DNA from: a virus
Direction: 5' to 3' (one strand)
Virus record (IMG/VR): IMGVR_UViG_3300035689_000045
Coordinates: 1 to 35,987 of that record
Length of the DNA stretch: 35,987 nt
This document shows, in pieces, positions 2,258 through 32,665 of this stretch. Position 1 is the stretch's first letter; each line of letters starts with the position of its first letter. A program made the translations under genes and the position numbers. The notes below the pieces were generated by a model that was given only the letters and a program-made list of their open reading frames with translations, was not told the origin of the DNA and ran no database searches.

Positions 2258-2632
2258 ATGGCGCAACTACCTATTGCTGAAGCTGACATTTGTATTTTTC
2301 AAGGGGCAACCTTTGACCAGACTTTGTTTTATGAAACAGGAGAACCGTCAACACCTGTTAATCTTGCGGGATTTACAGCCAAGATGCAGATCCGCTCAAA
2401 GCCCGAATCTAAGGCAGTAATTCTTGAGTTGTCCACGGCGGTTGGCAATGGTAGAATCACTTTAAATTCTGGATCTCAAAATGGGGCTATTCGACTATTT
2501 ATTTCGGCTACTGACACGGCGCTTCTCTCGGTCTGTGATAAGGCCGTATATGACCTTGAGTTATACAACGGGGCCGTCACAACTCGCATTCTTCAAGGTA
2601 ACGTAATCATTTCTCCAGAGGTAACCCGATAA
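2258..2632 (+). CDS. BppU-N-like fibre-associated protein, copy 1
   Basis: This 124-residue protein is a clear paralogue of the gene at 5711-6079. Both have a short lead-in, an F/W-x-QG or VQGKTW-type segment, then PVNL-x-G(F/Y) followed by an IR turn, a glycine-bracketed middle (GRITL or GITLGG), a VYDLELY/VYEIELY strand and a terminal (V/A)xQE-type TR/AR ending. This pattern is common in small all-beta phage proteins beside fibre genes and resembles the N-terminal domain of baseplate upper proteins (BppU). The probable job is a fibre or baseplate adaptor; the exact role is not established. It starts CTATG with no Shine-Dalgarno site, and its stop codon overlaps the next start as TAATG. Confidence 0.75.
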   Translation: MAQLPIAEADICIFQGATFDQTLFYETGEPSTPVNLAGFTAKMQIRSKPESKAVILELSTAVGNGRITLNSGSQNGAIRLFISATDTALLSVCDKAVYDLELYNGAVTTRILQGNVIISPEVTR

Positions 2633-2955
2633 TGAGTAAGATTTGTATCCCCATCCCAAGTTCCAGTGTTATTGGCGTTAGCTCAACCCCGATTCAAACA
2701 CCCAGCGTCAACATCCTTCGGGTGGAACCATCGATTACTGGGCTGGATGGTGGGGGATCAACCAACCTCGACGGACTTAATACGGTGAGCGGAACATATG
2801 CGGTGGGTATTGTCATCTTTCTAGTTATCGATGGAATCCCCGCCATCTATCAACTGGCCAACGGCACCGATGCTCAAAATCTTCCTTTCGTAGTCCAACC
2901 CAATGACTATGATAGCCAAACAGGAACCAAGCGGGTTTGGAAGCGATTAATGTAA
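2632..2955 (+). CDS. Hypothetical fibre-block protein
   Basis: This 107-residue protein has a proline/serine-rich N-terminal third, a glycine-rich linker (GLDGGGSTN), a hydrophobic strand pair (TYAVGIVIFLVIDG) and a C-terminus ending DYDSQTGTKRVWKRLM. A final D-Y-D...W pattern after short beta strands is common at domain ends in phage fibre proteins, so a fibre-attachment or fibre-domain role is plausible. I do not recognise a named family. Its start overlaps the previous stop (TAATG), and an AGAGGT site lies about 10 bases upstream of the ATG, so it is translationally coupled. It precedes the first signal-peptide fibre protein, much as the small gene at 9028 precedes the second. Confidence 0.65.
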   Translation: MSKICIPIPSSSVIGVSSTPIQTPSVNILRVEPSITGLDGGGSTNLDGLNTVSGTYAVGIVIFLVIDGIPAIYQLANGTDAQNLPFVVQPNDYDSQTGTKRVWKRLM

Positions 2956-2957
2956 AA

Positions 2958-5714
2958 ATGAAACTTATTCTCTCACTTATTATCGGAGGAGCTTTGGTTG
3001 TTTCGGGCTTCGGGCAAACTCGCAATGTTCTTGTTGGAACTAATAACACAGTGGTTCAGCCGACTAACTTCTGGAGCGTAGATGCATCTAATGCCCGCGC
3101 AGGACTTGGTCTTGGAACCGCTGCTACCAACCCCGCAACAGCCTTTCAGCCTTCTAGCTTATCTCTTAGTAATCTTGCTTTAAGTAATGGTGGATCTTTA
3201 ACTAATTTGAATTCTACAAATCTTGTTGGACAAATATCAAGCTCAAACCTTCCAACAATTGAGCTTACAAATTTAAGTGGAGTTCTTGGAATTATTTCTG
3301 GCGGAACGGGGGCAACCAATGCCGAAACAGCCAGAACAAATCTTGGTCTGTCTTGGTCTGGGCTGACTAATTCCAGTGCTTCTACATTTCAAACTGCGCT
3401 ATTTGGAACTAATACCAATCCAGTATTAGTCAATACCAGCGGAGTTGTTGTGAGTCCGACAAATTTTTGGGCAAATTCTCCAATTTCAACAGTAGTTCAA
3501 AGCTTTACAAATCTCGTTTCAAGCGAAACAAACACCGTTACAAACAGCAGAGATCTTTATGTCTATAGCAGCAGAACAAATATTTCTGGAGTCGTTAGCA
3601 CAATCCAGCTTCCGACCAACGCATCTTCTGGTGACATTGCAACAGTTGTTCATCGCGGATTAACCAATTCGACAACAGCTATTAGGCAGCAGGGAGAAAT
3701 AACAAACCTAATAAGCATCAGTAATTTCCAAGAAGCTGCAAAATTTATTTACACAACATCTTGGAGTCTTTTGGAAAACCAAGCATTTGCCAATCCTGTT
3801 TATTTCTCTGGAACAAACGCAACAGCCAATGCGGCGGCAAGCAGAACCAATTTGGGTTTGGGTGCGACAAGTGAACCAAACTTTCAAAGCATTGAGCTAA
3901 TCGAAGACACCAATAGTTTTACGATTAGCGCATTTGCTGGGGTCAATCGCACCAACCTCGGCCTCGGAGCCACATGGCTCACCAACACCAATGTCACGAA
4001 TTTTAGGACGGCGATTGGGTTGGGGGCGACGAATGATGTTACGTTTAGAGCAATTCAGACTGAAGCAATTTATTTTAGTGGTGATAGTATAATTTATTCT
4101 GATGGTTCTGATTATTTATATTTTACCAACGATTTAATTACGGCGTGGAGGCCCATTTCTTTTAACAGCGCCACCAACGCCGCCATCACCCGCACCAACC
4201 TCGGTCTTGGATGGTCTGCGCTAACAAACAGCAATACTGGAACTAGATTGGTTTCCGTGGACTCCAATGGATCTGTGGTAAGCCCGACAAATTTTTGGCA
4301 ATTAGCCCCCATTTCTTCCAATTTGCTAACCATTGTCCAGACATTTTCTCCGAATACCAATTCGACAAATGCCACAACCAACGGAAGAAATGTCTACGTA
4401 TATTCTTTGTCTACCAATGTTTCTGGAGTTACCAATACCATTACACTTCCCACCAATGCGGCAACACTAGCTGGTGACACTGTTACCGTAACCCATCAGG
4501 GATTAACTAATTCCACAACAGCAATTAGGAGGTTGGGTGAAACAAACAACCTCATCACTATCAATAATCTTGATGAGGCTGTTAAGTTTATTTACGAAAA
4601 TGGAGCTTGGGCGTTTTATCACAACATTAGTTTTGTGGAACCAATTCGATTTTCTGGAACCAATGCAGTAGCCAATGCGGCGGCAAGCAGAACAAATTTG
4701 GGATTGGGGGCAACATGGCTCACCAATACAACTATTCCAAATTTTCTTTCATCGATTGGGTTGTCTGCAACGAATGAGGTGTCATTTGAAACAGTAAGCG
4801 TTGATCAACTTAGTTGGGAAGGAACTACTGTATTTGAACCAGAAACAGGAACTTTTTATAAGAACATAAATTTTAACAACACCACTAACGCCGCCACTAC
4901 CCGCACCAACCTCGGATTGGGAGCCACATGGCTCACGAACACCAACGTCACAAATTTCCGAAGTGCGATTGGGTTGGGGGCAACGAATAGCGTTTCGCTT
5001 GGAACTGTTGTAGTTGGAGGGTTTTTAAACAATCCAGACACTGGATTCATTGTTGGTGACAATGGAAGCGGAGAAGAAACACATTTCAATGAGTCTGGAA
5101 TGTCTTGGTATTCGCAAAACGACCTCTATGCCGAAATAAGCGTCAAGGGACAGACCCTTTCGGGCCTTGGTAGTTGGACGTTTTACAACCCGATTGCATT
5201 TAACAACACCACTAACGCCGCCACCACCCGCACCAACCTCGGCCTCCCTCTCCCAGCCCTCACCAATACCAACGTCACGGATTTCCGCACGGCGATTGGG
5301 TTGGGCACCACTAATAACGTTACGTTTGGAAGTCTTTTTCTTTCAAATTCACAGATTGGCATTGGCGCAACTAATGGCGAATCTGTTACCTTTAGTTATC
5401 TTGGAGCACCGCTTTTTTCTATCGGCCTTTCGGGTGCTTCTTTTGCTAATCCCGTCTCTTTTAGTTCCGCCGCCGCCACTCGCACCAACCTCGGCCTTGG
5501 CCAAACCAACGATGTCACATTCAGCAATATAACGGCATCGGGTACATTGACCGCTACATCTACAGTGACGGCGAAGACCAATTTGATTGTGGAAGGACGC
5601 TTGGATTTTACTACCAACGCAACCAACAGCAATCCTTTGACCAACAACCAAATCAATGACTTTATTGAAATCCGCGTTGGAACCAACCAGTTCTGGCTAC
5701 CAGTTTACAAATGA
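2958..5714 (+). CDS. Large TNLGLG-repeat fibre/adhesin with signal peptide
   Basis: This 918-residue protein is rich in Asn, Thr, Ser and Gly and built of short repeats with the core TRTNLGLG, often extended by ATWLTNTNVTNF and AIGLGATN(D/S)VTF. Such repeats are typical of trimeric beta fibres. A diverged internal duplication of about 170 residues joins the 3331-3860 and 4191-4706 regions (landmarks SPTNFW, LPTNA, GLTNSTTAIR, EAxKFIY, ANAAASRTNLGLG). The N-terminus is a textbook signal peptide: MK, then a hydrophobic run of about 14 residues, then VSGFGQT, with likely cleavage near residue 19-20. I chose the ATG at 2958; an in-frame TTG 21 bp upstream would bury the signal peptide. Codon use alternates between AT-rich segments and GC-rich islands. 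A receptor-binding fibre is the best guess. A secreted or surface adhesin made by the infected host is the alternative suggested by the signal peptide. Confidence 0.85.
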   Translation: MKLILSLIIGGALVVSGFGQTRNVLVGTNNTVVQPTNFWSVDASNARAGLGLGTAATNPATAFQPSSLSLSNLALSNGGSLTNLNSTNLVGQISSSNLPTIELTNLSGVLGIISGGTGATNAETARTNLGLSWSGLTNSSASTFQTALFGTNTNPVLVNTSGVVVSPTNFWANSPISTVVQSFTNLVSSETNTVTNSRDLYVYSSRTNISGVVSTIQLPTNASSGDIATVVHRGLTNSTTAIRQQGEITNLISISNFQEAAKFIYTTSWSLLENQAFANPVYFSGTNATANAAASRTNLGLGATSEPNFQSIELIEDTNSFTISAFAGVNRTNLGLGATWLTNTNVTNFRTAIGLGATNDVTFRAIQTEAIYFSGDSIIYSDGSDYLYFTNDLITAWRPISFNSATNAAITRTNLGLGWSALTNSNTGTRLVSVDSNGSVVSPTNFWQLAPISSNLLTIVQTFSPNTNSTNATTNGRNVYVYSLSTNVSGVTNTITLPTNAATLAGDTVTVTHQGLTNSTTAIRRLGETNNLITINNLDEAVKFIYENGAWAFYHNISFVEPIRFSGTNAVANAAASRTNLGLGATWLTNTTIPNFLSSIGLSATNEVSFETVSVDQLSWEGTTVFEPETGTFYKNINFNNTTNAATTRTNLGLGATWLTNTNVTNFRSAIGLGATNSVSLGTVVVGGFLNNPDTGFIVGDNGSGEETHFNESGMSWYSQNDLYAEISVKGQTLSGLGSWTFYNPIAFNNTTNAATTRTNLGLPLPALTNTNVTDFRTAIGLGTTNNVTFGSLFLSNSQIGIGATNGESVTFSYLGAPLFSIGLSGASFANPVSFSSAAATRTNLGLGQTNDVTFSNITASGTLTATSTVTAKTNLIVEGRLDFTTNATNSNPLTNNQINDFIEIRVGTNQFWLPVYK
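3331..3860 (+). repeat. Internal duplication, copy A, in large fibre gene
   Basis: This is the first copy of a roughly 520-bp module repeated at 4191-4706. The protein copies align through SPTNFW, the Y(V)YS..TN(I/V)SGV segment, LPTNA, GLTNSTTAIR and ANAAASRTNLGLG. DNA identity is patchy, with an identical run of 23 bases at 3825-3847 and 4671-4693. Confidence 0.75.
3948..5494 (+). repeat. Iterated GC-rich TNLGLG DNA islands, group 1
   Basis: The 14-mer CGCACCAACCTCGG occurs exactly at 3948, 4191, 4902, 5229 and 5481. It is often preceded by GCCGCCAxCACC-like bases and followed by further shared bases encoding GATWLTN. The same amino-acid motif is also written with AT-rich codons at about 3331, 3841 and 4687. 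The identical synonymous choices at distant copies point to DNA-level exchange or recent copying rather than protein-level selection alone. Confidence 0.8.
4191..4706 (+). repeat. Internal duplication, copy B, in large fibre gene
   Basis: This is the second copy of the module at 3331-3860. It begins at a GC-rich island encoding RTNLGLG and ends at an AT-rich version of the same motif, so the copy is bounded by the short repeats themselves. That would be expected if recombination between repeats made the duplication. Confidence 0.75.
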
Positions 5715-6079
5715 CCAACTACTGGAGACTTGAGAGAGATATTGAGATCGTCCAAGGAAAAACATGGACGGCAAAGTTTCGTTATCTGACTAAGTCTTGC
5801 AAAGGAAAATCAAATGTCCCAGTCAATCTTACTGGCTACGGGGCCAACATGGTGATTCGGGAGTGCGCCAAGGATAGCGCCAGTTTGCTCACATTGACCT
5901 CTGGAAGCGGGATTACACTTGGCGGAACCGCTGGAACAATTGAAATAGAAATTACCGCTACACAGGCTTCAAATCTCACCGCTGGAGACAACGTCTACGA
6001 AATTGAACTTTACTCTGGCTATACCTACATCGCGTTCGCTACTGGTAAGGCCAAGGTTTATCAGGAGATCGCCCGATGA
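5711..6079 (+). CDS. BppU-N-like fibre-associated protein, copy 2
   Basis: This 122-residue protein is a paralogue of the gene at 2258-2632, sharing PVNLTGY, the ANMVIRE turn, GITLGG, a V-Y-E-I-E-L-Y-S-G strand and a QEIAR end. It probably has the same beta-sandwich adaptor fold. It overlaps the previous gene by ATGA and the following fibre gene by ATGA, so these genes should be translationally coupled. Each copy sits at the head of its own fibre subcassette (2258-5714 and 5711-10358), which suggests that a fibre cassette duplicated and then diverged. A direct partnership with the adjoining fibre is inferred from position. Confidence 0.75.
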
Positions 6080-8022
6080 GCCAAGAAATCATTGAGGTAA
6101 CAGAGAGAGAAGTAGAGGTTATTGAGATCGTTGAGCGCGGCCTTATTGGGCAAACTGGCCCCGCTGGCCCTGCTGGCCCGCAGCCCGACATCAACTATAC
6201 AGTAGTATCAACAAATACCACGCTACAGGCCGCAGATCTTATTGCAGCAGATACGTCTGGAGGTTCATTTACGCTTACACTGCCAGCTAGTCCAAGCAAT
6301 GGAGACGCCGTTGATATCTTTGATTTTTCAGATACATTTGACACAAATAATCTAACTATAGCTCGTAACGGATCACGGATTGAGAGCCTTGAAGAGAATT
6401 TAGTCTGTAACGTTGAGGGAGCCTATTTTACTCTAATCTACACTGGGGCTACAAGAGGATGGCAAATTTTGCCGCGCTACAGCGGATCCACCATACCAAG
6501 CGGCCCAGCAGGAGGAGATCTTGCGGGAACCTATCCCAATCCCACGCTAACTACTTCAGGGGTCAGCGCGGGAACCTACACTAAAGTCACGGTAGATACC
6601 AAAGGACGGGTCACAGTCGGAGCCACGGCCACCAAGTCTGATGTCGGGCTTTCCAATGTTGATAACACATCGGATCTGAATAAAGTTGTATCCACAGCCA
6701 CCCAGACAGCACTAGACCTTAAAGCCAATCTGGATTCCCCCGCTCTTACGGGAACCCCGACAGCAACCACTGCTGCTGCTGGAACCAATACCACTCAGAT
6801 TGCTACTACAGCGTTTACGCTGGCAAATCGCGGAGACAGATACCTTACAACCAGCACATCATCCCATTCTCTTACTACTGGTTCCAAGACATTTATTGTA
6901 CAGTCGGGACTTAGCTACACCCCAACACAGGACGTTACTATTGTATACGATGCAAGCCGTCATATGCATGCTTTTGTTGTCAGCTATTCTGGAACATCAT
7001 TGGTAGTTAATGTTGATACTGTGGAAGGCACGGGTGGGCCATTTACAGCTTGGACAATCAATGTTGGCGGGCTTTTGACGGCACAGGGTGCGCTTCTGGA
7101 GGTCAACAATCTCAGTGATGTTAGCAACCCAGCAACCGCACTAACTAATATCGGAGGTGTGCCGACAAGCAGAACTATCAGCGCAGGAACAGGGCTTACG
7201 GGTGGAGGAGATCTTACAGCTAATAGAACCCTCACGGTCAGCTACGGAACCACATCTGGCACGGCCTGTGAAGGAAATGATGTTCGCCTAAGTGACGCCA
7301 GAACCCCGCTTTCCCACACCCACCCCGCCAGCGCAATTTCTGATTCCACGGGTTCTGGCCGAACACTGCTTACGTCCAATCTTGTCGGCGCGAGGGCGCA
7401 TCTCAGTTTGTTTCCGTCGTTTGCCAATAGGGCAGCATTCCCCGTCACGGGTGAGGTGGATCGCGTTTATACTGCCCTTGATACTTTCAAGACGTATGTG
7501 TGGGTTACGGCGCTTTCTGACTATGTAGAGATTTCGCCCAACATTAAGTCTGATTGGAACGCAACCAGCGGGGACGCGGCAATTTTAAATAAGCCAACAT
7601 TGGGTACGGCAGCAGCGGCTAACACCACAGACTTCGCCCCTACAAATCTCGTCGGCTCTCCCATCGAATTCGTCATCGCCGCCTCCAACGAAACACCAGC
7701 ACTGACTGCTGGTGCAGCTAAAGTCACGTTCCGCGCTCCTGTGGCGTTCCGTCTTACTTCAGTTTCTTCTTCAGTTACTGTGGCTCCGACAGGCTCTACC
7801 TTGATTGTAGACATTAACAACGGAGCCAACAGCGTTCTGTCCACCAAACTCTCAATCGACGCCACGGAAAAGACCAGTGCTACAGCAGCAACCCCTGCGG
7901 TGATTGATGCGACTTATCGTGATTTTTCGCAAAATGCTGAGATTACTATCGACATTGACCAAGTCGGTTCAACGGTAGCTGGCGCTGGACTCAAAGTTAT
8001 TCTCGGAGGGACAAGGCTGTGA
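6076..8022 (+). CDS. Tail fibre protein with short collagen-like segment
   Basis: This 648-residue protein starts with an acidic N-terminus, followed by a short collagen-like triplet run ([13 protein letters not shown], residues about 25-37). It contains the fibre motifs [24 protein letters not shown] and ALTGTPTAT with TTQIATTAF, then [23 protein letters not shown] and [11 protein letters not shown]. All are widespread in phage tail fibres and collar-type proteins. It has no signal peptide, unlike the two TNLGLG proteins nearby. The C-terminal 130 residues form a separate beta-rich domain that may bind a receptor. A good AGGAG site lies 8 bases upstream of the start. Its stop overlaps the next gene, which starts with GTG (GTGA). 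The fibre call is confident; receptor specificity cannot be read. Confidence 0.88.
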
Positions 8023-8540
8023 GTGCTTTTGTAATCAATCCGTATGCCTTCGCTGAAGAACGCATCGTAAACGGTGACTTTTCAAATGTCACTGGCATGA
8101 CCAGCAATGTTGCGAATTGGTGGGGCAGGGCGGTTCCTTTCGGCTGGGGCGCGTTCGTAAATGTGGCTACAAACGATTTCTTGGTGCGTTTGCTGAATGG
8201 CGTCTATTACGCAAATCTTCAGGGCCTTACACGTTCACCAGTAGAAGCAGGGGGGACATTGCCGTTTTTCCAAGATTTCACAATGCCTGCAACGCTTGAT
8301 TTTGTTCTCACATTTAGCGCCTCAAATCCATTTAATGCAAACGCGTGGGCAATGGCTGCAAATATCTTTAATCGAACTACGGGTCAGCAAATTGCAGGTA
8401 CGGGAACTGCAATCAACACACCACAGACCGTCACGCTTACAGCGTCCAACGTGCCTGCGGGTCATGTGGTTCGCATCAACTTTTGGAAAGGGGCAGCGGC
8501 TCAAACTCCTGCACTTTCTAATGTCAGCGTAATATTCTAA
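8019..8540 (+). CDS. Jelly-roll-like fibre-tip or carbohydrate-binding candidate
   Basis: This 173-residue protein starts with GTG, overlapping the fibre stop as GTGA. It opens with an [17 protein letters not shown] segment followed by W and GW positions, then alternating beta strands and an ending (ALSNVSVIF) like the last strand of carbohydrate-binding modules. An NGDFS...GW...VRL opening is typical of jelly-roll domains that bind sugars. The likely role is a fibre tip or accessory sugar-binding subunit. I cannot assign a family by eye, and the fold is inferred. No catalytic motif is seen. Confidence 0.65.
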
Positions 8541-8542
8541 GC

Positions 8543-9028
8543 ATGAAACTTCTCTACAATACCCAAACAGAACAAGTCCTTCCGTGGCCGCGCATTGATG
8601 AGGAGCCGATTGTCGGTCTTGCTCCAGAGCTTTTGGAGATGACTGTGGTGGAAAGCGAACCGCCTGCTTACAACTCCGAAACCCAAGTGCTCACTCAATC
8701 GGATTCCGTCAATGTGGAAGCGCAGACTGTGACGCGCACTTGGGCGGTCACCGATCTTATCTATACCGCAGAGCAAATCGTCTCGCAGTATTTTAGCGCC
8801 TACCAAATCGCCGCCCTCCAGCGTTTTGAAATGGCCCTTCTCCAAGCAGGCAAGCCGCTCGGCGTAAAAATGACCGCCGCGAAGAACTGGCTGGAGGCCG
8901 TGATGCTGGGCTGGGCGATGAATCCTGTCGCTGCACCTGCGGCCAGCTTTGGAATCCCTGCGGCATCGTTTGAAGAGGCGAGTGCGGAGGCTGTGGCTGA
9001 TCTATCCACCCCGAACCCCGAAACATAA
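8543..9028 (+). CDS. Hypothetical fibre-block protein, possible fibre-assembly factor
   Basis: This 161-residue protein starts MKLLYNTQTEQVLPWPR and has a proline/acid-rich N-terminal half, a predicted helical middle (about 75-125, including RFEMALLQAGKPLGVKMTAAKNWLEAV) and an alanine-rich C-terminus. N-terminal sequences of the form Y-(D/N)-x2-T-x3-(L/I)-x-P are seen in small proteins encoded just after fibre genes, some of which act in fibre assembly. I infer such a role but recognise no named family. It starts two bases after the previous stop and its own stop overlaps the next start (TAATG). Confidence 0.6.
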   Translation: MKLLYNTQTEQVLPWPRIDEEPIVGLAPELLEMTVVESEPPAYNSETQVLTQSDSVNVEAQTVTRTWAVTDLIYTAEQIVSQYFSAYQIAALQRFEMALLQAGKPLGVKMTAAKNWLEAVMLGWAMNPVAAPAASFGIPAASFEEASAEAVADLSTPNPET

Positions 9029-9243
9029 TGGCATTCCTATCAGCATATTATCCCCAGCCCGTAGTGGCAGGAACCACCGCAGGAACCTATGCGGAGGGAG
9101 ACGATGCTGCCTTCAAGGTGGGATCGGATGACATTGAGATCACTAGTGCGGCCAAGGGGATTATCTTGCGGGATTCCAACGGGGTCAGACGCCGACTCAG
9201 AGTAGACACAGACGGAACCCCGCTAACAGAGGTATTACCATGA
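9028..9243 (+). CDS. Small hypothetical fibre-block protein
   Basis: This 71-residue protein starts MAFLSAYYPQPVVAGTTAGTY and contains short beta-prone segments ending in RRRLRVDTDGTPLTEVLP. It overlaps both neighbours (TAATG upstream, ATGATGA downstream), so it is a coupled member of the operon. Its last codons contain an AGAGGT site that serves the following signal-peptide fibre gene. No family is recognised; a structural adaptor role is inferred only from its place. Confidence 0.55.
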   Translation: MAFLSAYYPQPVVAGTTAGTYAEGDDAAFKVGSDDIEITSAAKGIILRDSNGVRRRLRVDTDGTPLTEVLP

Positions 9244-10358
9244 TGAAGAAACTAGCACTTACACTTTTATTCGGGATTTTGGGGGTCGGGGTCTACGGGC
9301 AGACCATCAAAACGCTTGGATTTAATACGGCCAATGGCCAAGTAGTCGCCAATACGGGAACCAACTTTTTGACGTTCACGAATAGCATTTGGTTAAGCGC
9401 GGATGTGAAGATAGACGATGGGGTAACAATCCAGAGTGAAGGCGAAACTTATATTGATAGCTATTTTAGGTTTAACCAAGAGATTCGATTTAATGCCACA
9501 AACTCTGACGCAGCCTCTTTCACCCGCGCCAACCTCGGTCTTGGTTTGCCAGTTCTAACAAATACAAATAACGCAAATTTTCTTAATGATTTAGGAGTTG
9601 GAACAAATAGTTCTCCAACATTTGATACAATTACAACTGGTACAAACGGAATTTCTGTTGGCACTGCTGGGGCAAGATTTTCTCAATCTACATCAGGAGG
9701 TGGCGCTGCGATTGGTTGGCAGGGAAATTCCCAAAGAATTAGTTTTATTGGTAGTGTTGGCATGAGGCTTGAGGAGTCTGGTTTAGGTATTGCCTTTGGC
9801 GCAAGCAACACCAACGGAGCCGCCATCACCCGCACTAACCTCGGCCTTGGAGCCACATGGCTAACAAATGTGGCTGGCGGTGTTGGTTCCGCTATTATTG
9901 GTTCAGGCCCAAATAACACTGTATCGGGTAATGGTAATTTTTCTGTAATTGTTGGTGGGCGTGATCACGCAGTGAGCGGAGGGCTGTCAGTCGTTTTGGG
10001 TGGAAGAAGTAATGAAGTAACGGCCAACTACTCTATAGCTGCTGGAACGGCAGCAAAAGCGGTTCATTTTGGGTCATTTGTTTTTGCCGATTATGGAGTC
10101 AATGCACCTGATCTTATATCCTTCTCTTCCACTAATGACAATTCCTTCAATGTGCGTGCTGCTGGCGGGATGAGCCTTGATCTAGGAACAAATGGAATAA
10201 TCTTTAGAACCAATGTGTCAGCGGACGCTACCCGCACCAACCTCGGCCTTGGCAACGGCATCACCACCAACCGCACCTTCGTCTCCTACGATGGAACCAA
10301 CTACACCACCAACTCCGTGACCATATCCAACGGGATCATTACGGGATGGACGCAATAG
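9240..10358 (+). CDS. Second signal-peptide fibre/adhesin with YadA-like head repeats
   Basis: This 372-residue protein has a signal peptide (MMKK, hydrophobic run LALTLLFGILGVGV, then YGQT; likely cleavage near residue 20). TNLGLG-type repeats lie at about 97-104, 197-205 and 331-338. Residues about 214-310 resemble trimeric-autotransporter (YadA-type) head repeats: NGNFSVIVGG, SGGLSVVLGG, ANYSIAAGTAA, then GSFVFAD and FNVRAAGG. Such heads form trimeric left-handed beta-rolls that bind surfaces. It shares repeats and signal-peptide style with the 918-residue protein, so the two probably have related jobs. The ATGATG start leaves two possible first codons. It is either a fibre tip or a secreted adhesin. 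No autotransporter barrel is present, so the resemblance covers only the passenger. Confidence 0.8.
   Translation: MMKKLALTLLFGILGVGVYGQTIKTLGFNTANGQVVANTGTNFLTFTNSIWLSADVKIDDGVTIQSEGETYIDSYFRFNQEIRFNATNSDAASFTRANLGLGLPVLTNTNNANFLNDLGVGTNSSPTFDTITTGTNGISVGTAGARFSQSTSGGGAAIGWQGNSQRISFIGSVGMRLEESGLGIAFGASNTNGAAITRTNLGLGATWLTNVAGGVGSAIIGSGPNNTVSGNGNFSVIVGGRDHAVSGGLSVVLGGRSNEVTANYSIAAGTAAKAVHFGSFVFADYGVNAPDLISFSSTNDNSFNVRAAGGMSLDLGTNGIIFRTNVSADATRTNLGLGNGITTNRTFVSYDGTNYTTNSVTISNGIITGWTQ
9525..10246 (+). repeat. Iterated GC-rich TNLGLG DNA islands, group 2
   Basis: Copies related to the islands of the first fibre gene lie at 9525 (CGCGCCAACCTCGG), 9831 (CGCACTAACCTCGG) and 10233 (CGCACCAACCTCGG). 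The 9831 copy continues into GGCCTTGGAGCCACATGGCT, nearly matching the island at 3948, although the genes are 6 kb apart. Confidence 0.75.
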
Positions 10359-10400: not shown

Positions 10401-12677
10401 ATGGCTTCTAACGGTAACGCAGAACTGGAGAATTTGAACGAGGCGGGATCTCCTCCTAAAAAGCGGATCAAATCCTCCGACAATCTTATTTCCATTGCAA
10501 ATAAGTATATCGAACAAGACGAGGATGCGGCGTATCTTCGTGCGCGGGCTCAAGCCCTAGTCAACGGCGAAGCACCCTATGATGCCGAAGAGCTTAAATC
10601 CAAGGGACTTACCCACGTAGTCAATGCCAACTTTGGAGAAGCCAACTCCATTATGGAGGCTGCTCTAGCCCCCTATATTGAACTCCAAAACGGGGTGCCC
10701 CGCATCGCCAACGTCATCATGGACTCCTACGAAGGAGACTCCAACGAGGACTCTGAGATCATCTCTGAAGAGTTTGACTGGATGCTCAAGGAGTGGAACG
10801 ACCACGCTTATAACATGCAACTCCTCTCCAGAGAGTTTGTCGGAGATGGAGTTGGGGTTGCTATGTGGCCCGACGAACGCTCCATCTTCTGGGAGCCGTG
10901 CGGACTCAAGGACTTTAAAGTGGCTCGCGACACTAAAGTTTCAGACGAATCTATCGAAGTAGCCATCGTCCAACGCTCCATGAGCGTGAGCGAGCTATAC
11001 AACTACATCCGCAATCCTAAAGCGGCCAAGGCCCTTGGCTGGAATCTCAACGCGGTCAAGCAAGCCATCTGGAAGGCATCAACCAAGCGGGATCAGTGGA
11101 AGAACTACACTGCCCACTGGGAAGATTTTGAGCGCGAAATAAAAGAAAACGACCTATATGCGGGTGAATCTGCATATCATAGAGCACAATTGGTCTATGG
11201 TTATAACAAGGAGTTTGACGGCAAGTTCACCCAGTTGATTGGCAGTCGGGATTCTTCGGATTTCCTCTACGAACGCTACAGCCGCTATGGAGATGTCAAC
11301 CAGTGCTTCGTCATCTTCACCTACGGAGTGGGACAAGGAACCTTCCACACCATTCGCGGGCTCAAGCAGAAGATCTACAATCAGATTCAGATTTCCAACC
11401 GCGTGTTGTGCCAAGCCGCCCAAGCCGCCATTACTTCTGGGCTTATCCAGTTGCAGGGTGACGCCGAAGCCATCCAAGACTTTCAATACATTGAGGTCGG
11501 GCCTTATACATTTATCCCTAGCGGGCTGACCCCGATCCAACTTCAACCTCCCGCAGTAGCAACTCAGGGGCTTCCTGTTTACAACCTGATGAGTCAGGTG
11601 TTGCAGAATAATACAGGTAGCTACCGTTCTAGGCAGACCACGCCCGAAGGCCAAGCAAGGTCGGCTACCGAAGTTGTCCAGCAGGCCCGCCAAGAATCCA
11701 CGCTCAACGCCGCAGCACTGGAACTCTTTTACACTCCATATAACAAACTTCTGACCGAGCAGTATCGTAGAGCAGTTAGCCCCCTTCTCACAGCCAACGA
11801 TAAGGGTGGACGCCTAGCCCTAGAATTCCGTAAACGCTGTCTACGTAGAGGAGTAAGTGTTGAGCGGATGCGCCAGTTTCTTAAAGTCACAGCCTTCCGC
11901 GCCATGGGCGATGGAAGCCCCGTAATGACCGAAATGGCCTCCAAGCAACTCATGGAGCTTTACTCCTTGATGGACGAAAAGGGCAAAGAGAACACCCTTC
12001 GTTCCGTCATCGCTGGTATCTCTGGGGTGGGTTGGCAGAAGGTCAACCTCTTCGTCTCCGAGAAAGGCCCCCGCCGTACAATTGACTTTGATATTGCCAA
12101 CCTTGAAAACGGCAACCTTCGTAATGGCATTCAACAGATGGTGCATGACAGCCAAAACCATGCTGTGCATATCGAAGCCCACATTCCTCTTATGGCGGAG
12201 ATTATTGAAATGCATCGCCAACAGCAGATGCCCGATGAGCGGGCTATGGCCATCCTCCGTCCCACAGCCGACCATACCACCGAGCATTTGGTTCTCTTCT
12301 CAAACAACAGCTTCCGCAAGCAAGAGGTCAACGAACTTAAACGCCAGCTTCAGAACGTCACGGCCTATGTTGATGAATTGGAGCAGCAGGTAATCAATCG
12401 GGCTATGGCCGAACAGAGCCAAATGCAAGAGGCTGCTATGGCCCCGCAAGAAGGGGGACAACAGCAGATTGATCCCAAGATGGAAATGGAATTCCAGAAG
12501 GCCCAACTTAAACTAGCCGAGATGCAGGAGAAGCGGATGATGAATCAAGAAACCCATCAACAGAAGATGGAGACGATCAGGCAACAGATGGCTCTTAATG
12601 ATCTTAAGACGCGGAGTTCTATTCTAGAGAAAACGGCTAGGCCCGCAGGCCGACCCCCGATGGCTACACAAGTATAA
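10401..12677 (+). CDS. Portal (head-tail connector) protein
   Basis: This 758-residue protein forms the dodecameric channel at the capsid vertex through which DNA enters and leaves. Its length is close to that of P22-type portals. The core contains RGLKQKIYNQIQISNR, a QTTPEGQARSATEVVQQARQ-type segment and AALELFYTPYNKLLTEQYRR, all typical of short-tailed-phage portals. The last 130 residues or so form a Gln/Met-rich coiled coil that could project into the capsid as a barrel. It is separated from terL by 8 kb of fibre genes. The start ATG has a CTAATG context and no Shine-Dalgarno site. It is followed by the scaffold and capsid genes, as expected for a head module. Confidence 0.9.
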   Translation: MASNGNAELENLNEAGSPPKKRIKSSDNLISIANKYIEQDEDAAYLRARAQALVNGEAPYDAEELKSKGLTHVVNANFGEANSIMEAALAPYIELQNGVPRIANVIMDSYEGDSNEDSEIISEEFDWMLKEWNDHAYNMQLLSREFVGDGVGVAMWPDERSIFWEPCGLKDFKVARDTKVSDESIEVAIVQRSMSVSELYNYIRNPKAAKALGWNLNAVKQAIWKASTKRDQWKNYTAHWEDFEREIKENDLYAGESAYHRAQLVYGYNKEFDGKFTQLIGSRDSSDFLYERYSRYGDVNQCFVIFTYGVGQGTFHTIRGLKQKIYNQIQISNRVLCQAAQAAITSGLIQLQGDAEAIQDFQYIEVGPYTFIPSGLTPIQLQPPAVATQGLPVYNLMSQVLQNNTGSYRSRQTTPEGQARSATEVVQQARQESTLNAAALELFYTPYNKLLTEQYRRAVSPLLTANDKGGRLALEFRKRCLRRGVSVERMRQFLKVTAFRAMGDGSPVMTEMASKQLMELYSLMDEKGKENTLRSVIAGISGVGWQKVNLFVSEKGPRRTIDFDIANLENGNLRNGIQQMVHDSQNHAVHIEAHIPLMAEIIEMHRQQQMPDERAMAILRPTADHTTEHLVLFSNNSFRKQEVNELKRQLQNVTAYVDELEQQVINRAMAEQSQMQEAAMAPQEGGQQQIDPKMEMEFQKAQLKLAEMQEKRMMNQETHQQKMETIRQQMALNDLKTRSSILEKTARPAGRPPMATQV

Positions 12678-21821: not shown

Positions 21822-23630
21822 TCATGGGTTTACGCCGATATCAATAAATGTATTATAATTATCTTTGTAAAGAACTGGGCAATTTTCAATTTCAACAAGT
21901 TCATAATCAATATCCCTGTCTCCCCTGAAACCCTGAAGCCAAATAAATGGAGCATCAAAATAAATTGCTGTTGATTCATTTTGTTCTGGATTTATAGTAG
22001 TAAATCCGCCGCTTGTTGTAAAAAAGTTAAAATCTTGATCAAAATAAGCTCCACGCAAAAGTCTTTGATAAAATGTGGCGCTTTTTTCTGGTTTTCCGCC
22101 AAAAACATATTTAGCTCCAATTATTGCGTCTTCGTGTTTTGTTCCGTCGATTCCAGCTATTGCGCTTTCTGTTGTGCTTCCAGTTCGGTATGTAAACGAT
22201 GGCCCGCTTTGTGTCCATGTTTTGTTGCTTGATGTGTTGAGAGAAAAAATTCCACCATAGCCAAAAAAATAATCAAGCTGTCCAAGTCCTAAAATCGTTT
22301 CTTGAGTTCCTCTATTCACAGCAACAAAAAAACTTCCATCGTTAAATGTTGGGCCATCAAATGTAAAATTTTTTCCAAATTGTCCACTTAAAAATGCTCC
22401 AAATGGACTTGCTATGCTGCATAAAAGATAATTACTAAATGCAAATAATTCTCTAATTGTTGTTTGATACCTTATGCCCAAATACGGTTCGGTGTTTATG
22501 TAGGTTGTGTTTCCTGCTCCACCAGCTTGAACTTGATTATTTGTATCAATTGGAAAAGAGGCAAATGTTGTTGTAGAAGCAAAACTTTTTATCTTGTTTG
22601 CAAATCTTTGAATAAAGGGTATTGCTTTATATGTAAATACTGGATTTGGCGATACCTCTGTGAATGTTTCATATTCAGATTCAAACGCTGTAATTGGTTC
22701 TGTGTTACCTCTGTGCTGATATGTTCTATTAAAAATAAATGTATCCCGTAAAGTCGATATATATTTTACAAATCTAAAAAAACTTTGTTCGTTTTCTGGG
22801 CCAGTGTTTGGAAATTTATTTCCAAAATAATATGCAGTTAAGTCACTTTCATCAAATTCAAGGTCTTCATATTGTAAAGAACTTGATGACTCTTGCACGG
22901 AAAGACTTGATGTTGGTGTATCATCATATTGTGTAAACACGTTTCTTGTTTTTACATCAGCAGATCTTGTGTATTTTGTTGCTGTTGTTACATAATCGTC
23001 TATTTGCAATGCTTGACTATCCCAAGAGCTTGCGTACAAAAATGTAGTAAGCGCCAGCCAAACCCTGTTAGGATTTGTTGAAGTGTTTAATTCATAAATT
23101 GTATCATGTGTATTTCCAATAGTGGTTCCAGAGTTTGTTTCCCCTGTCACCGTTATTGTGATCGTGGTGTTTACTGGCTCAGTAAAATTTGCCTGTGTTG
23201 GAACATTAGAAGTTGTTGAAGTAAAATTTATGGTGTCAAATTTATTGGTTGATTTTGTTTTTGTTGTATAGACGGCTTGTAAAGACTGGGTTCTAACAGA
23301 ATATGAAACAAAGTTTGCTGTTCTCGTTCTTGTTGTTGAGGTGTAGCGAACTACCGTTTTTTGGTTCGTAAAAGAAGATGATCCAGAGGCGCTTCCGCTA
23401 TTTGTTGTTGTTATGGTGCTCCTGTTTGTTCCGACTCCAGATATTGCTGTTCCGCTCCATGAGGATGACCTTGATGTATTGTAAGAGTAGGTTGTTCCAG
23501 TAACGTTTCTGCTATCTGTCGTTCCTCCGCCGCCCCCTCCTTGGGTTGGTGATTGAAAGGTTGGAGTATACGAACTTGTGGCGACAAAATTCATTTCGCC
23601 GCGAATCGTAGCTGACCTCCAAATCATCAT
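21822..23630 (-). CDS. Large Ser/Thr-rich structural-type protein
   Basis: This 602-residue protein is the last gene of a three-gene minus-strand operon. Residues about 15-135 are dominated by Ser, Thr, Gly and Asn with a GGGGGG hinge. The middle is Tyr/Phe-rich and probably globular (for example SFFRFVKYISTLRDTFIFNR). The C-terminal 250 residues contain many aromatic beta-like segments (GPTFNDGSFFVAVNRG, GQLDYFFGYGGIFSLN, FDAPFIWLQGFRGDRD). No named domain is recognised. The composition fits a virion surface or host-interaction protein. It overlaps the gene above by ATGA. DNA is markedly AT-rich compared with the head genes. The gene ends 4 bp from the convergent glycosyltransferase gene. 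Confidence 0.7.
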   Translation of the reverse strand: MMIWRSATIRGEMNFVATSSYTPTFQSPTQGGGGGGTTDSRNVTGTTYSYNTSRSSSWSGTAISGVGTNRSTITTTNSGSASGSSSFTNQKTVVRYTSTTRTRTANFVSYSVRTQSLQAVYTTKTKSTNKFDTINFTSTTSNVPTQANFTEPVNTTITITVTGETNSGTTIGNTHDTIYELNTSTNPNRVWLALTTFLYASSWDSQALQIDDYVTTATKYTRSADVKTRNVFTQYDDTPTSSLSVQESSSSLQYEDLEFDESDLTAYYFGNKFPNTGPENEQSFFRFVKYISTLRDTFIFNRTYQHRGNTEPITAFESEYETFTEVSPNPVFTYKAIPFIQRFANKIKSFASTTTFASFPIDTNNQVQAGGAGNTTYINTEPYLGIRYQTTIRELFAFSNYLLCSIASPFGAFLSGQFGKNFTFDGPTFNDGSFFVAVNRGTQETILGLGQLDYFFGYGGIFSLNTSSNKTWTQSGPSFTYRTGSTTESAIAGIDGTKHEDAIIGAKYVFGGKPEKSATFYQRLLRGAYFDQDFNFFTTSGGFTTINPEQNESTAIYFDAPFIWLQGFRGDRDIDYELVEIENCPVLYKDNYNTFIDIGVNP

Positions 23631-24412
23631 TGTATTCTATACCATAAATTGTAAGCGGGCGTTCCAAACGAACCGCCAGTTCTTTCTGTGGCAAACACAT
23701 TTTGAACACGAACAGAAATATCTCTTCCTCCAGAAGTATTTATGTTAATACCGTTTTCAAATAGTCCAAAAACAAAATCTGCCTCATCTGGTGCGGAGTT
23801 TTCAGTTGTTTGCGAGTATTGAGGCAAAGATGTTGAAACATTTATTTCTGCTCCATTTATGAATTGGCCGTCTGTTTTTACGGTAACAATTCCATAGCAT
23901 AGTGTATCTTTGGATGCTGTAAATTCATCATCCCAATTTTCTGGAAGAATTCCAGAGATTGTCCCACCCCTAACCTTTAGCGTATAAGTGTCATTTTCTT
24001 TTTTCTTTACATAAATATCCCAAGGTTTTAAATCTAATTCGGTGGCTGTTGATGGTATTTCTGGCTTAAATTTTTGCAGCCCATTGAATGGTTCAATTGT
24101 TTCAAAATTAATGGGTGATCCAATTTGGATTGATCCATTTTCATCAATGTTTGTTTTTGTGTTTCTTGATGACTGTATCGCGCTATTTATTGTCTGATCG
24201 GCCAACCATCCACTAATCCTGCCAGAAGACTGAAACTTTTTTATTTCTCTAGCTATTTTTCGTCCAAGCGGCCCACCCTTTGCCATAGATTGCAACAGGG
24301 CTTCTTGCCCAGACTGTGTGGAAAGAATTGAAAACGCTAATCCCTTTTGTTCTCGCCTTTCCTTATTGCGAGCATCAACTTCGTTTGCTCTAATATTTGA
24401 ACTGAATTCCAT
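23627..24412 (-). CDS. Middle gene of minus-strand operon, structural-type hypothetical
   Basis: This 261-residue protein starts MEFSSNIRANEVDARNKERR. The first 80 residues are helical and charged (SILSTQSGQEALLQSMAKGG, LGRKIAREIKKF). The rest is beta-like: KPWDIYVKKKENDTYTLKVR, then GGTISGILPENWDDEF and VTVKTDGQFINGAEINVS. A W-x-I/V-x(n)-YT-L-K-V-GG-T-I-x-GILP pattern resembles small beta domains found in tail-tip and fibre proteins. I place the start at 24412; an upstream TTG at 24418 would overlap the previous gene. The two-base gap from the first gene and 4-bp overlap with the third show one transcription unit. Confidence 0.65.
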   Translation of the reverse strand: MEFSSNIRANEVDARNKERREQKGLAFSILSTQSGQEALLQSMAKGGPLGRKIAREIKKFQSSGRISGWLADQTINSAIQSSRNTKTNIDENGSIQIGSPINFETIEPFNGLQKFKPEIPSTATELDLKPWDIYVKKKENDTYTLKVRGGTISGILPENWDDEFTASKDTLCYGIVTVKTDGQFINGAEINVSTSLPQYSQTTENSAPDEADFVFGLFENGININTSGGRDISVRVQNVFATERTGGSFGTPAYNLWYRIQ

Positions 24413-24414
24413 AA

Positions 24415-26961
24415 TCAAGCAAAAACAGAAGCATCAAAAACAACAGCCCTGACCAAAAACCAATTAAATTTATAAGGCTCTACGGATGTGCTGATTATGT
24501 ATTTCCCGTTTTTTGGAACATCTGGTTGATTTGTTTCTGGTATTGTTATTTGATCGTCTATAGAAATGCTGTGAGATATGGGTTTTATTATTTCTACAGC
24601 AGGAAATTCTTCTCCAGTTGACGTAGTAACGCCTTCATAGTTTAGTTTGATTTCTCCAGAGTCAGCATTAAGAGTATTTGTTAAATTAAGAATTTTTTGT
24701 GAGCGCAAACACGGAGGAATGTTTATAATAACAGGAATTAAAGATTTTTTATAATCTGTCTGAGATTCAGTTGTTGGCTGATAGCCTATTTCTTCATTGC
24801 GAGTAAAAGACATTGCCCTGCTTATTCCGACACTAATTGTTTTTGTTTCTGATACTCCATAAGCTGTTGCAATAAAAGATTCTGGTTTAAACACTGGCCA
24901 ATTTCCAGTTGCTCCAACTTTAGAATTAATGGAGCCGCTGTTAAGATTTGATTTTTCTAGAAAAAATATGTGAATGTTTGCTGGAATATTGTTTCCCCAG
25001 TATTCTTTAAATGTTATTTCAATTTTTGGAACCAGCGAAAGCGTTGAGGATATTGAGCCGTTGTCTCTTTGTGTCAAAGAATCAAAAGACCCTTTAAGTC
25101 CACTTGAGTCAAATTCGTTTTCTCCCAAACTTTTTTCTTCCTGCCACCCAGCAATTGTAACATCAGAAAGAACTCTGGGAGTATTAACATCAGCAGATGA
25201 AGGAATTACAATTGAAAATCCACCAAGAATTGATTCAAGAGAATCTAAATTATATTCCCTAACAAGATAATTTCCATCTCCAAGTCCTTCAACTTCAATA
25301 TTGTATCCAGTTACAACAGTGGAAGATATATATTCTACAAAAGGAAGTTGAATTCCCCAACTCTCATCAAGATCTCTATTATTAATTTCTTCGTAATTTT
25401 CTTCTCTTTGCAGTGTAACAGATTGAACAGTGTGAGCCGTAAGCCTTTGTTCTGATTTTAAAAATTGTCTATCTTCTAAAACTGGAATAGAAACAGTAGT
25501 TTGTTCTTTTGTTTCCTCCGTTCTATTGAGAGGGCTATTAATTCTGAATTTTTCAGGTATTGGATCGGTTTTTTGAACCGACAAAAGCTTAGAGTCAAAT
25601 ACATTATCAATCTCTGTTTTTCTTACTACATAGTTTCCATCTCCAAGAGCTTCGCTTTGAATGATTTTTTTTGCTGTTGGTTGCTCTGTTGTGTCTCCGC
25701 CTTGAAGCGTTTCTGTAATATTTGCAAGTTGCAAATCATTGTTAGTTGTTTTTTGTGTAAGAGTTCTTGGAAGTAATGTTTGATTTCTTGATGTTGATGA
25801 TATACGCTTTACAAACTTATCTACTTGCTGTTCGCTTTTGGATATTTGCCCAGAAGACAAAATAGGAGTTGTTGCAGTTCCTTCTATGTTTGACTGTTCT
25901 GTGGTAGACGGAATAAGAACCCTGAACTTTTCTGGTATCGGATCTGGGCGCTCTGTTGAGAAAACTTTTGCGCTAAAAATTTCTGGAGTTTCAGTAATTC
26001 TTTCAATTATTGATTCGGCGTCTTCGCGTGAAACTTCAACTGTTTTGATTGCTGTTGGATTTGGCGGAACATATCCATCTGCCGCCTTTCGCTGCGTTGT
26101 TATAGTAACAAGTTGTTTTTCGTTGTCAGTTGCTTGCCCGATTAATTGGGGGCCGCTTACGGAATATTTTTCAACAATTTTATCAACAACCAAAGTATTG
26201 ATGGGCTGATAAGATGTCTGAGTAATTATTCCGCCGTTATTAACAAGTGATCCCTCAAGACTTCCATCATCGTAAACAATCTGACTAATCCTTTCAATCG
26301 GGCCTTTGATTGGATCATAAACGTCCTCTCTGCGAACTGGGCCGTTTAATGTGTAAGTTGTTGTTACCTTGTATGATAGATATTCGTTGTACGCTTCATA
26401 ACCAATCTGTGTTACTACAGGATCATTAAATTCAATTGATGCTTTTTCTTCCCCTGTCGGAACAAATAATTGCCTTCTTTCCTTAACAGCGCCAAGTCTT
26501 GGATCGTAAAAATCCCGATCTTTTATTGGGAATAGAGAGTTTTCATCTTCGTCGGTCTTTATAGACCAAATCTCTTCTATTTCTAGAGAAACAATGGCCG
26601 ATCCGTCCCGCCCTTCATATGATATCTTTTTATCAGACGACAAACTGGCTTGCTGTCCTTCATTTTTAACCGCTCTGCGCCGACCCTGAATCGGGCCTAG
26701 ATCGTCATCATAGCGGGTAAATGGCACCCAAGGAGAGGGAAGAATCTCCCACACATGGCGAACCCGTTCATCCCCAGAAAGGGGCTGGGCCCCCGTAAAT
26801 ACATGGTTAGGATAGCGTTTGTCGGGACAGGTTGAGAGGTCTTCAGGAACCTTGTACCCAGCCACCCTTGGGTCGGCATTTAGGCTTACAATTGGGTAAT
26901 CGCGATCATTGGCGGAGTAGCCAAGGACATAGATACGATTCAGGGGCGGGTTTTCGGCCAT
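24415..26961 (-). CDS. Large repeat-domain protein heading the minus-strand operon
   Basis: This 848-residue protein shows two sets of tandem repeats. Residues about 84-270 hold three units opening RYDDDLGPIQGRRR, FYDPRLGAVKERRQ and VYDPIKGPIERISQ. Residues about 330-570 hold units of about 125 residues marked by DPIPEKFR (340 and 466), KSEQ (375 and 502) and LGDGNY(V/L)VR (439 and 560). The whole looks like a chain of beta domains, as in fibres or baseplate arms. The first 90 codons are GC-richer than the remaining AT-rich part, so the gene may be a fusion. No enzyme motif is seen. The minus-strand promoter at 26993-27021 lies about 35 bp upstream. A structural role is inferred. Confidence 0.7.
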   Translation of the reverse strand: MAENPPLNRIYVLGYSANDRDYPIVSLNADPRVAGYKVPEDLSTCPDKRYPNHVFTGAQPLSGDERVRHVWEILPSPWVPFTRYDDDLGPIQGRRRAVKNEGQQASLSSDKKISYEGRDGSAIVSLEIEEIWSIKTDEDENSLFPIKDRDFYDPRLGAVKERRQLFVPTGEEKASIEFNDPVVTQIGYEAYNEYLSYKVTTTYTLNGPVRREDVYDPIKGPIERISQIVYDDGSLEGSLVNNGGIITQTSYQPINTLVVDKIVEKYSVSGPQLIGQATDNEKQLVTITTQRKAADGYVPPNPTAIKTVEVSREDAESIIERITETPEIFSAKVFSTERPDPIPEKFRVLIPSTTEQSNIEGTATTPILSSGQISKSEQQVDKFVKRISSTSRNQTLLPRTLTQKTTNNDLQLANITETLQGGDTTEQPTAKKIIQSEALGDGNYVVRKTEIDNVFDSKLLSVQKTDPIPEKFRINSPLNRTEETKEQTTVSIPVLEDRQFLKSEQRLTAHTVQSVTLQREENYEEINNRDLDESWGIQLPFVEYISSTVVTGYNIEVEGLGDGNYLVREYNLDSLESILGGFSIVIPSSADVNTPRVLSDVTIAGWQEEKSLGENEFDSSGLKGSFDSLTQRDNGSISSTLSLVPKIEITFKEYWGNNIPANIHIFFLEKSNLNSGSINSKVGATGNWPVFKPESFIATAYGVSETKTISVGISRAMSFTRNEEIGYQPTTESQTDYKKSLIPVIINIPPCLRSQKILNLTNTLNADSGEIKLNYEGVTTSTGEEFPAVEIIKPISHSISIDDQITIPETNQPDVPKNGKYIISTSVEPYKFNWFLVRAVVFDASVFA

Positions 26962-31638: not shown

Positions 31639-31639
31639 T

Positions 31640-32662: not shown

Positions 32663-32665
32663 TTT

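Follow-up and report, generated by a model that had tools for sequence, protein, structure and literature searches.

Predicted secretion leaders on two fibre-like proteins of an uncultured phage and its relatives

Do some tailed phages export a class of fibre-like proteins from the infected cell? Textbooks treat tail fibres as proteins of the cytoplasm, yet the virus record IMGVR_UViG_3300035689_000045 (35,987 bases, analysed in full and called the window below), from a group of uncultured viruses of freshwater bacteria, encodes two proteins with TNLGLG repeats that begin as secreted proteins do. We term these SPF1 (2958-5714, plus strand; ATG at 2958, 918 amino acids, stop ending at 5714) and SPF2 (9240-10358, plus strand; ATG at 9240, 372 amino acids, stop ending at 10358); SPF, like COLF and E71 below, is a name coined in this analysis. 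An earlier note on this DNA had placed both genes correctly and had proposed that the infected host may export their products, with coating of the cell, a block on superinfection or altered adhesion as possible roles. The sequences of the two proteins and their relatives indicate that both very probably carry cleavable Sec leaders, and hence are exported and cleaved. For the whole reading, in which exported and cleaved SPF1 and SPF2 have a role off the virion, we estimate a probability of roughly 0.5.

Predicted leaders of SPF1, SPF2 and their relatives

Both proteins start with the pattern of a classical Sec/type I signal peptide, as the earlier note had recognised: a short Lys-containing n-region, an unbroken hydrophobic run and then, after small residues, Gln-Thr. 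SPF1 begins with MKLILSLIIGGALVVSGFG followed by QTRNVLV, and SPF2 with MMKKLALTLLFGILGVGVYG followed by QTIKTLG, the predicted cuts falling before Gln20 (3015-3017) and Gln21. The putative signal peptides comprise 19 codons (2958..3014) and 20 codons (9240..9299; a second ATG at 9243 is a possible start). They precede the mature fibre-like parts, of which that of SPF1 (3015..5711) consists of a head (QTRNVLVGTN..PTNFW), TNLGLG repeats, a variable middle and a C-terminus ending ..FWLPVYK, and that of SPF2 (9300..10355) of TNLGLG repeats and a tip, ..TNSVTISNGIITGWTQ, common to other proteins encoded just before the portal gene. An in-frame TTG at 2937 would extend SPF1; the ATG at 2958 agrees with relatives.

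Relatives from IMG/VR comprised 16 loci found with SPF2, 79 found with the putative portal (80 best of 90) and the best 80 of 149 found with the SPF1 head; counts are of distinct sequences and not of independent phages, many loci overlapping or sharing one contig. A rule-based predictor, which considers n-region charge, h-region hydropathy and the residues at −3 and −1, called leaders in 76 of 84 SPF1-class and 22 of 22 SPF2-class proteins. None was called in the collagen-like fibre COLF (0/68; 6076..8022, plus strand, in the window), which had been described as lacking a leader and serves as our contrast case, or in the portal (0/65), scaffold (0/61) and terminase (0/53) classes; the labels portal, scaffold and major capsid protein (MCP) are assigned from position and size. 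The eight SPF1-class misses comprise one mis-sorted COLF-type protein (L029:5129) and seven proteins that, by eye, have their leader behind an internal Met. Among unnamed proteins 11 of 357 were positive, one spuriously (L028, minus strand); the other ten are leader-bearing phage proteins, mostly from the slot before the portal gene.

A gene set chosen by position is the one lying directly 3′ of B107, a 107-amino-acid protein (2632..2955, plus strand) that directly precedes SPF1 and marks its slot. Here a leader is predicted in 58 of 58 distinct genes, versus 2 of 698 plus-strand proteins from the other named phage classes at the same setting, both of them weak B107 cases. By sequence, the genes of this slot have the positively charged n-region, hydrophobic h-region and small −3 and −1 residues of Sec and signal peptidase I substrates. 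The predictor is loose, with 33 of 222 genes positive in Verrucomicrobiota pieces. Across larger relatives, it made three calls among 88 genes of at least 70 amino acids in G388 (70 kb), namely SPF1 and two judged spurious, and two among 83 genes in G389 (73 kb), namely SPF1 and one pre-portal gene. Outside the fibre block of G388, a 131-amino-acid frame (L278:17284-17679) holds, by eye, MKKLLLLPLLLSNTLA followed by QDGS, starting from an internal Met; this may be a further leader with Gln after the cut.

Constraint across the leader boundary

Selection was first counted in 61 haplotypes of the SPF1 start. The row pattern required a small residue, Gln and Arg-Asn/Thr-Val, so that the invariance of Gln20 was partly built into this set; a recount on the 58 position-chosen genes gave the same result. 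In the h-region of the 61 haplotypes, hydrophobic and small residues replace one another freely, and a single Asn intrudes. In the position-chosen genes Lys2 and Gln20 are each present in 58 of 58, position −3 is Gly in 56, Ala in one and Ser in one, and position −1 is Gly in 42, Ser in 10 and Ala in six. Over 56 distinct haplotypes the ratio of nonsynonymous to synonymous polymorphism (pN/pS) is 0.49 in codons 2-19, 0.069 in codons 20-47 and 0.234 in codons 48-60. The leader also has a low pS (0.33 versus 0.64), as would be expected close to a used start codon.

It had also been suggested that the hydrophobic start may instead tie the fibre to the particle; in a wider form of this alternative, the start stays uncleaved and holds the fibre either in the particle or in a membrane. 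The AlphaFold2 (AF2) model gives this idea something to build on, predicting the SPF1 leader as a confident helix (residues 2-19, with block values of the predicted local distance difference test, pLDDT, of 86 and 70 and low values in the remainder). A discarded leader in front of a conserved mature head would produce a step in constraint at Gln20, and a particle anchor would produce the opposite pattern. The leader sequence is relaxed while its physico-chemical pattern is kept, −3 and −1 are small, Gln20 is invariant and constraint rises sharply there, which looks like the signature of a removed leader. Furthermore, many interchangeable leaders occur in the pre-portal slot, and the leaderless fibres of the same phage have conserved starts of their own. 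We therefore regard an uncleaved anchor as unlikely. Beyond the helix, structure prediction was of little use: mean pLDDT is 60.5 for SPF1 residues 1-200 and 42.5 for SPF2, values too low to justify searching for similar folds.

Leaders in the pre-portal slot

SPF2 occupies the slot before the putative portal gene (10401..12677, plus strand; named by position and size), which served as a query for relatives and marks the slot. A leader is predicted in 27 of 54 distinct genes directly 5′ of the portal gene; in the stretch examined, every one of these 27 shows Gln after a small residue. These leaders are of several unrelated kinds, for example MKKLALTLLFGILGVGVYG, MKYLIALLMFTSASAFA, MKTAITLLILLVGCAYG, MKYFLIILLALVSASYG, MNLKNTLLALLAMSYSLCG and MKKIILIAILAIAPTVYA, and some precede unrelated mature parts. 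By eye, MKTAITLLILLVGCAYG (L062:2094, L090:9596) holds a lipobox-like LVGC, and this variant might be lipidated.

The mature fibre-like parts

The TNLGLG repeats are real, with six exact copies in SPF1 (maximum of zero in 2000 shuffles) and two in SPF2 (shuffle maximum of one). The YadA-type head that had been described was not recovered: for SPF2 no Pfam family matched at E<=1, and none of the three Pfam matches to SPF1, all sub-threshold and including T4 gp37_C (E 0.0023; 18.5 bits versus a cut-off of 22.5), is YadA. The likeness to YadA-type trimeric autotransporter adhesins is thus one seen by eye, that of an exported repeat-rich fibre; no head or anchor domain was found. The best PHROG matches are weak (SPF1, E 0.064; SPF2, E 0.006 to phrog_8279, of unknown function), and at this level no PHROG fibre family matches either protein convincingly. 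Annotated phage records gave no match for the portal, SPF1 or SPF2, the SPF1 head alone giving two at E 3 that were disregarded. Sequences in the PDB gave none for SPF1 and, for SPF2, two at E 0.83-0.85, likewise disregarded. A domain common to SPF1 and COLF was also considered; a profile comparison gave it a probability of 9% and did not show it.

SPF1 and SPF2 nevertheless resemble the tail fibres of tailed phages (PHROG families, gp37-like proteins and those with LtfC-type neighbours) in their place in the structural block, repeats, hypervariable middles, exchangeable tips and fibre-assembly-type neighbours; they differ in the N-terminal Sec leader and in the lack of a convincing PHROG fibre match. 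Median normalised similarity among relatives is 0.23 for SPF1 versus 0.96 for the portal. Tips were compared as the last 90 residues of 62 SPF1, 39 pre-portal, 36 COLF and 23 E71-type proteins; a cluster of five of the 39 pre-portal rows appears by eye to consist of mis-sorted replication proteins, which match only one another. Between classes, 24 SPF1/pre-portal pairs and 104 COLF/E71-type pairs share tips, versus eight pairs of a leader-bearing and a leaderless protein, all in one cluster ending LGLIA. Tips thus appear to be exchanged chiefly inside each set, leader-bearing or leaderless.

The two sets also differ in cysteine content. Mature SPF1 proteins have four Cys in 45,890 residues (57 of 60 proteins, including the window copy, are Cys-free) and leader-bearing pre-portal proteins two in 7,305, versus 111 in 30,067 for COLF and 175 in 14,103 for E71-type proteins. 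Disulfide formation as a rationale for exporting SPF1 is ruled out by this near absence of Cys.

The SPF1 head in other phages and in host genomes

The homologues looked for exist, as leader-bearing relatives in IMG/VR and as head matches in Verrucomicrobiota. A GTDB scan with the head alignment yielded 42 stretches for testing, of which one was confirmed, in a Verrucomicrobia metagenome-assembled genome. There, tape-measure and tail genes are followed by two leader-bearing proteins that start with MKKILIVLLACFTCTHVYSAATPIYGVRVDTNGLVLAPTNFW and MKKLLSSLIFTAVVASASAASPPIYGVRTDTNGLITAPSNFF. The first has a GDSL region (E 1.9e-5) below the Pfam cut-off (25.7 versus 32.9 bits); its GDS lies at 357 and its DGTH at 518. 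The mature head is thus not confined to the window's architecture: phages built differently, one of them a Verrucomicrobia prophage, combine it with other leaders. A DNA scan for the pattern DTNG-four-PTNFW, which itself carries no leader information, found 16 stretches, 15 of them inside frames called leader-bearing; in nine of these 15 frames, the PTNFW stretches are internal motif copies within SPF1-type genes. The remaining stretch, L289, repeats the L285 sequence with a broken frame, and the leader of L285 recurs upstream of it. L285, L295 and L289 (61-62% GC) and L291 (55% GC) represent further phage types with the head motif. One prophage protein, L100:8809, had no relatives in IMG/VR.

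Could the leader and head instead be a relic of a host surface gene, hitchhiking with the fibre repeats and without a present role? Capture from host outer-surface genes had been raised as an origin, and a head match occurs in five of 387 Verrucomicrobiota genomes. Three of these (G001, G069, G343) lie among phage-type genes, one (G119) is ambiguous, and one, in a host polysaccharide/glycosyltransferase region (G182), lies outside phage. Capture is weakly indicated. As most other head matches are among phage genes, and the leader is kept in 58 of 58 SPF1-slot genes under purifying selection and is swapped for other working leaders, not lost, a functionless relic seems very improbable. In G343 (L213:6726-9747) there is a row of leader-bearing genes, four called and a fifth seen by eye, adjoining a 2294-amino-acid protein with MuF_C, ART-PolyVal and Zeta_toxin matches.

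Gln after the predicted cut

Assuming that the cut lies between the small residue and Gln, Gln is at +1, the Q-rule criterion, in 58 of 58 SPF1 and 27 of 27 pre-portal leaders. According to PMC5837995, Bacteroidetes signal peptidase I substrates have Gln at +1 at a mean of 71% per species; our proteins resemble them in having Gln immediately after the predicted cut. In a Verrucomicrobiota sample Gln was at +1 in four of 49 proteins, with cuts roughly placed, and the proteins of G001, G069 and G343 lack Gln at the likely +1 position, unlike the window's group. The hosts of this group may follow the Q-rule; if they do not, Gln must be retained on other grounds. The pointers to the host diverge: the head match, restricted to Verrucomicrobia in the GTDB scan, points to Verrucomicrobiota, and Gln points to Bacteroidota or a high-Q clade, the genomes sampled for Gln share being Verrucomicrobiota. 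Shine-Dalgarno use (relatives, 14% versus 7% shuffled; Verrucomicrobiota, 24% versus 14%) is not discriminating as a clue to the host.

Gln at +1 also bears on a further explanation, namely that export serves mainly protein quality, with a pyroglutamate N-terminus and periplasmic folding guarding a long fibre from cytoplasmic proteolysis or aggregation. The small residue and Gln in all 27 pre-portal and 58 SPF1 leaders agree with it, and PMC10653852 connects extracytoplasmic proteins with glutaminyl cyclase and the Q-rule, its title relating both to the stability of these proteins. However, this account assigns the mature fibre no role, and disulfides cannot be the reason in proteins that mostly lack Cys. 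We give it little credence.

Phage-encoded leaders followed by Gln have a precedent. Phages of P. gingivalis encode Q-rule signal-peptide proteins, which PMC10367356 reads as adapted to host secretion and able to modify the outer membrane. The P. gingivalis phage proteins come from five genes, of unknown function and assigned to a single proposed family, whereas the leaders described here belong to fibre-like proteins whose structural loci are fixed across many phages. In passages of PMC6811365, PMC8144416 and PMC3517404 there is nothing on leader-bearing fibres, and searches of limited reach found no paper, annotated phage or solved structure with this combination.

Where exported fibres might act

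Export by the infected host is probable because leaders are predicted in 58 of 58 genes versus 2 of 698, constraint steps up at Gln20 and Cys is depleted. The SPF1 and SPF2 genes lie inside the structural block and would presumably be expressed late. The infected cell would export the products via Sec, signal peptidase I would cut before Gln, and the mature proteins would fold outside the cytoplasm. Such a phage would have two fibre sets. The leaderless set, COLF and the E71-type proteins, would be built in the cytoplasm together with the virion; the exported set would consist of SPF1, SPF2 and further proteins of the pre-portal slot. Proteins of the exported set would most likely have a receptor-binding or adhesive function at the envelope or, once the cell has lysed, in the medium, for example by masking receptors on the producing cell and on debris or by acting on surface glycans. 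T5 Llp is a phage superinfection-exclusion lipoprotein, and the likeness lies in the export of a phage protein with the potential to block a receptor, blocking by SPF proteins being hypothetical; SPF1 and SPF2 differ in being large, fibre-like and mostly without a lipobox.

The site of action is less sure than export. We favour action at the envelope or outside the cell because the head occurs in phages with different tails, the tip pools are largely separate, and one prophage relative has a GDSL-like region with GDS and DxxH. The main rival holds that SPF1 and SPF2 are exported and cleaved, fold in the periplasm, and attach to virions once lysis mixes the compartments. Their genes stand beside those of fibre-assembly type (phrog_1084/3304), the hypervariable middles resemble those of receptor-binding fibres, the strongly conserved mature head must bind something, and P22 and T4 tailspikes or fibres attach in vitro to finished particles. 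Attachment sites should differ, however, between phages of different tail architecture, which have the head in common; PTNFW, recurring inside SPF1-type proteins, may be a structural unit and not an anchor; and leader-bearing tips form a pool largely apart from that of leaderless fibres. We judge late attachment to released virions the less likely of the two. More broadly, there is about an even chance that a second class of fibres, set apart by compartment, is maintained across several unrelated phage architectures; we call these exofibres. They would be exported by Sec, cleaved by the signal peptidase of the host, with the cut before Gln in phages of the window's group, and diversified like receptor-binding proteins, and would act outside the cytoplasm on host cells or join virions only after lysis.

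Several observations weigh against an exported fibre class acting off the virion. Shuffled SPF1 N-termini were also called positive in 405 of 4000 cases; residue composition aids leader calls but cannot account for 58 of 58. The unaided predictor picked a non-Gln site for most SPF1 proteins, placing the cut at Gln in only five of 76 calls, so the Gln cut site rests on conservation. Half of the pre-portal genes (27 of 54) lack a leader. Cys depletion is not specific, since the scaffold-position protein has none in 22,901 residues, and seven leader-bearing Verrucomicrobiota prophage or phage proteins have 1 to 14 Cys each. SPF1 similarity tracks that of COLF (r 0.35, p 0.012) no more closely than that of the portal (r 0.33), and a receptor common to SPF1 and COLF is thus unsupported, the correlation being no higher than general relatedness. 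A Pfam scan of the window found no outer-membrane anchor and no type IX secretion system (T9SS) domain PF18962, the general Pfam scan being the check for other T9SS C-terminal domain families; passage to the cell surface thus lacks an explanation. The genes also lie within the structural block and adjoin one of fibre-assembly type, which fits a virion role. Nor is the arrangement universal: the record holding L086 (portal 70%) has adjacent terminase and portal genes and no head match, and a Verrucomicrobiota prophage (G191, contig C3, L210/L211), with a portal 22% identical (E 1.2e-30), has a leaderless fibre-like protein.

Exofibres, if real, would imply either that phages have receptor-binding proteins released from the cell or that particles are completed outside it. 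Proteins read as fibres in uncultured phages then need not be virion parts, which matters for host prediction from fibre genes.

Other features of the window

The block opens with the terminase gene (311-2236; phrog_2, E 9.4e-15), followed by A1084a (2258..2632, plus strand), which matches phrog_1084 (E 6.5e-22) and phrog_3304, L-shaped tail fibre assembly (E 6.7e-8). A second phrog_1084 protein, A1084b (5711..6079, plus strand; E 2e-17), lies 5′ of COLF, which has PHROG tail and tail-fibre matches. Exactly two Cys are present in 46 of 49 distinct relatives of the first phrog_1084 protein and in 38 of 38 of the second. Further genes between COLF and SPF2 start at 8019, 8543 and 9028, the last being E71 (9028..9243, plus strand; 71 amino acids). 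Its first 25-35 residues also open long leaderless proteins of relatives, of up to ~1,090 amino acids (e.g., L023:7575), so that one start is common to a short protein and to long fibre-like ones.

The MCP-position protein had no match in the PHROG search. On the minus strand, 21822-26961 holds three large genes (602, 261-263 and 848 amino acids) of ~35-45% GC versus ~50% elsewhere, the two largest without a PHROG match. Near the end of the window, a frame from 33811 continues past the end of the record. In G388 (L277:4922-13108), a 2728-amino-acid protein follows three genes that match the order of window positions 30658-33808.

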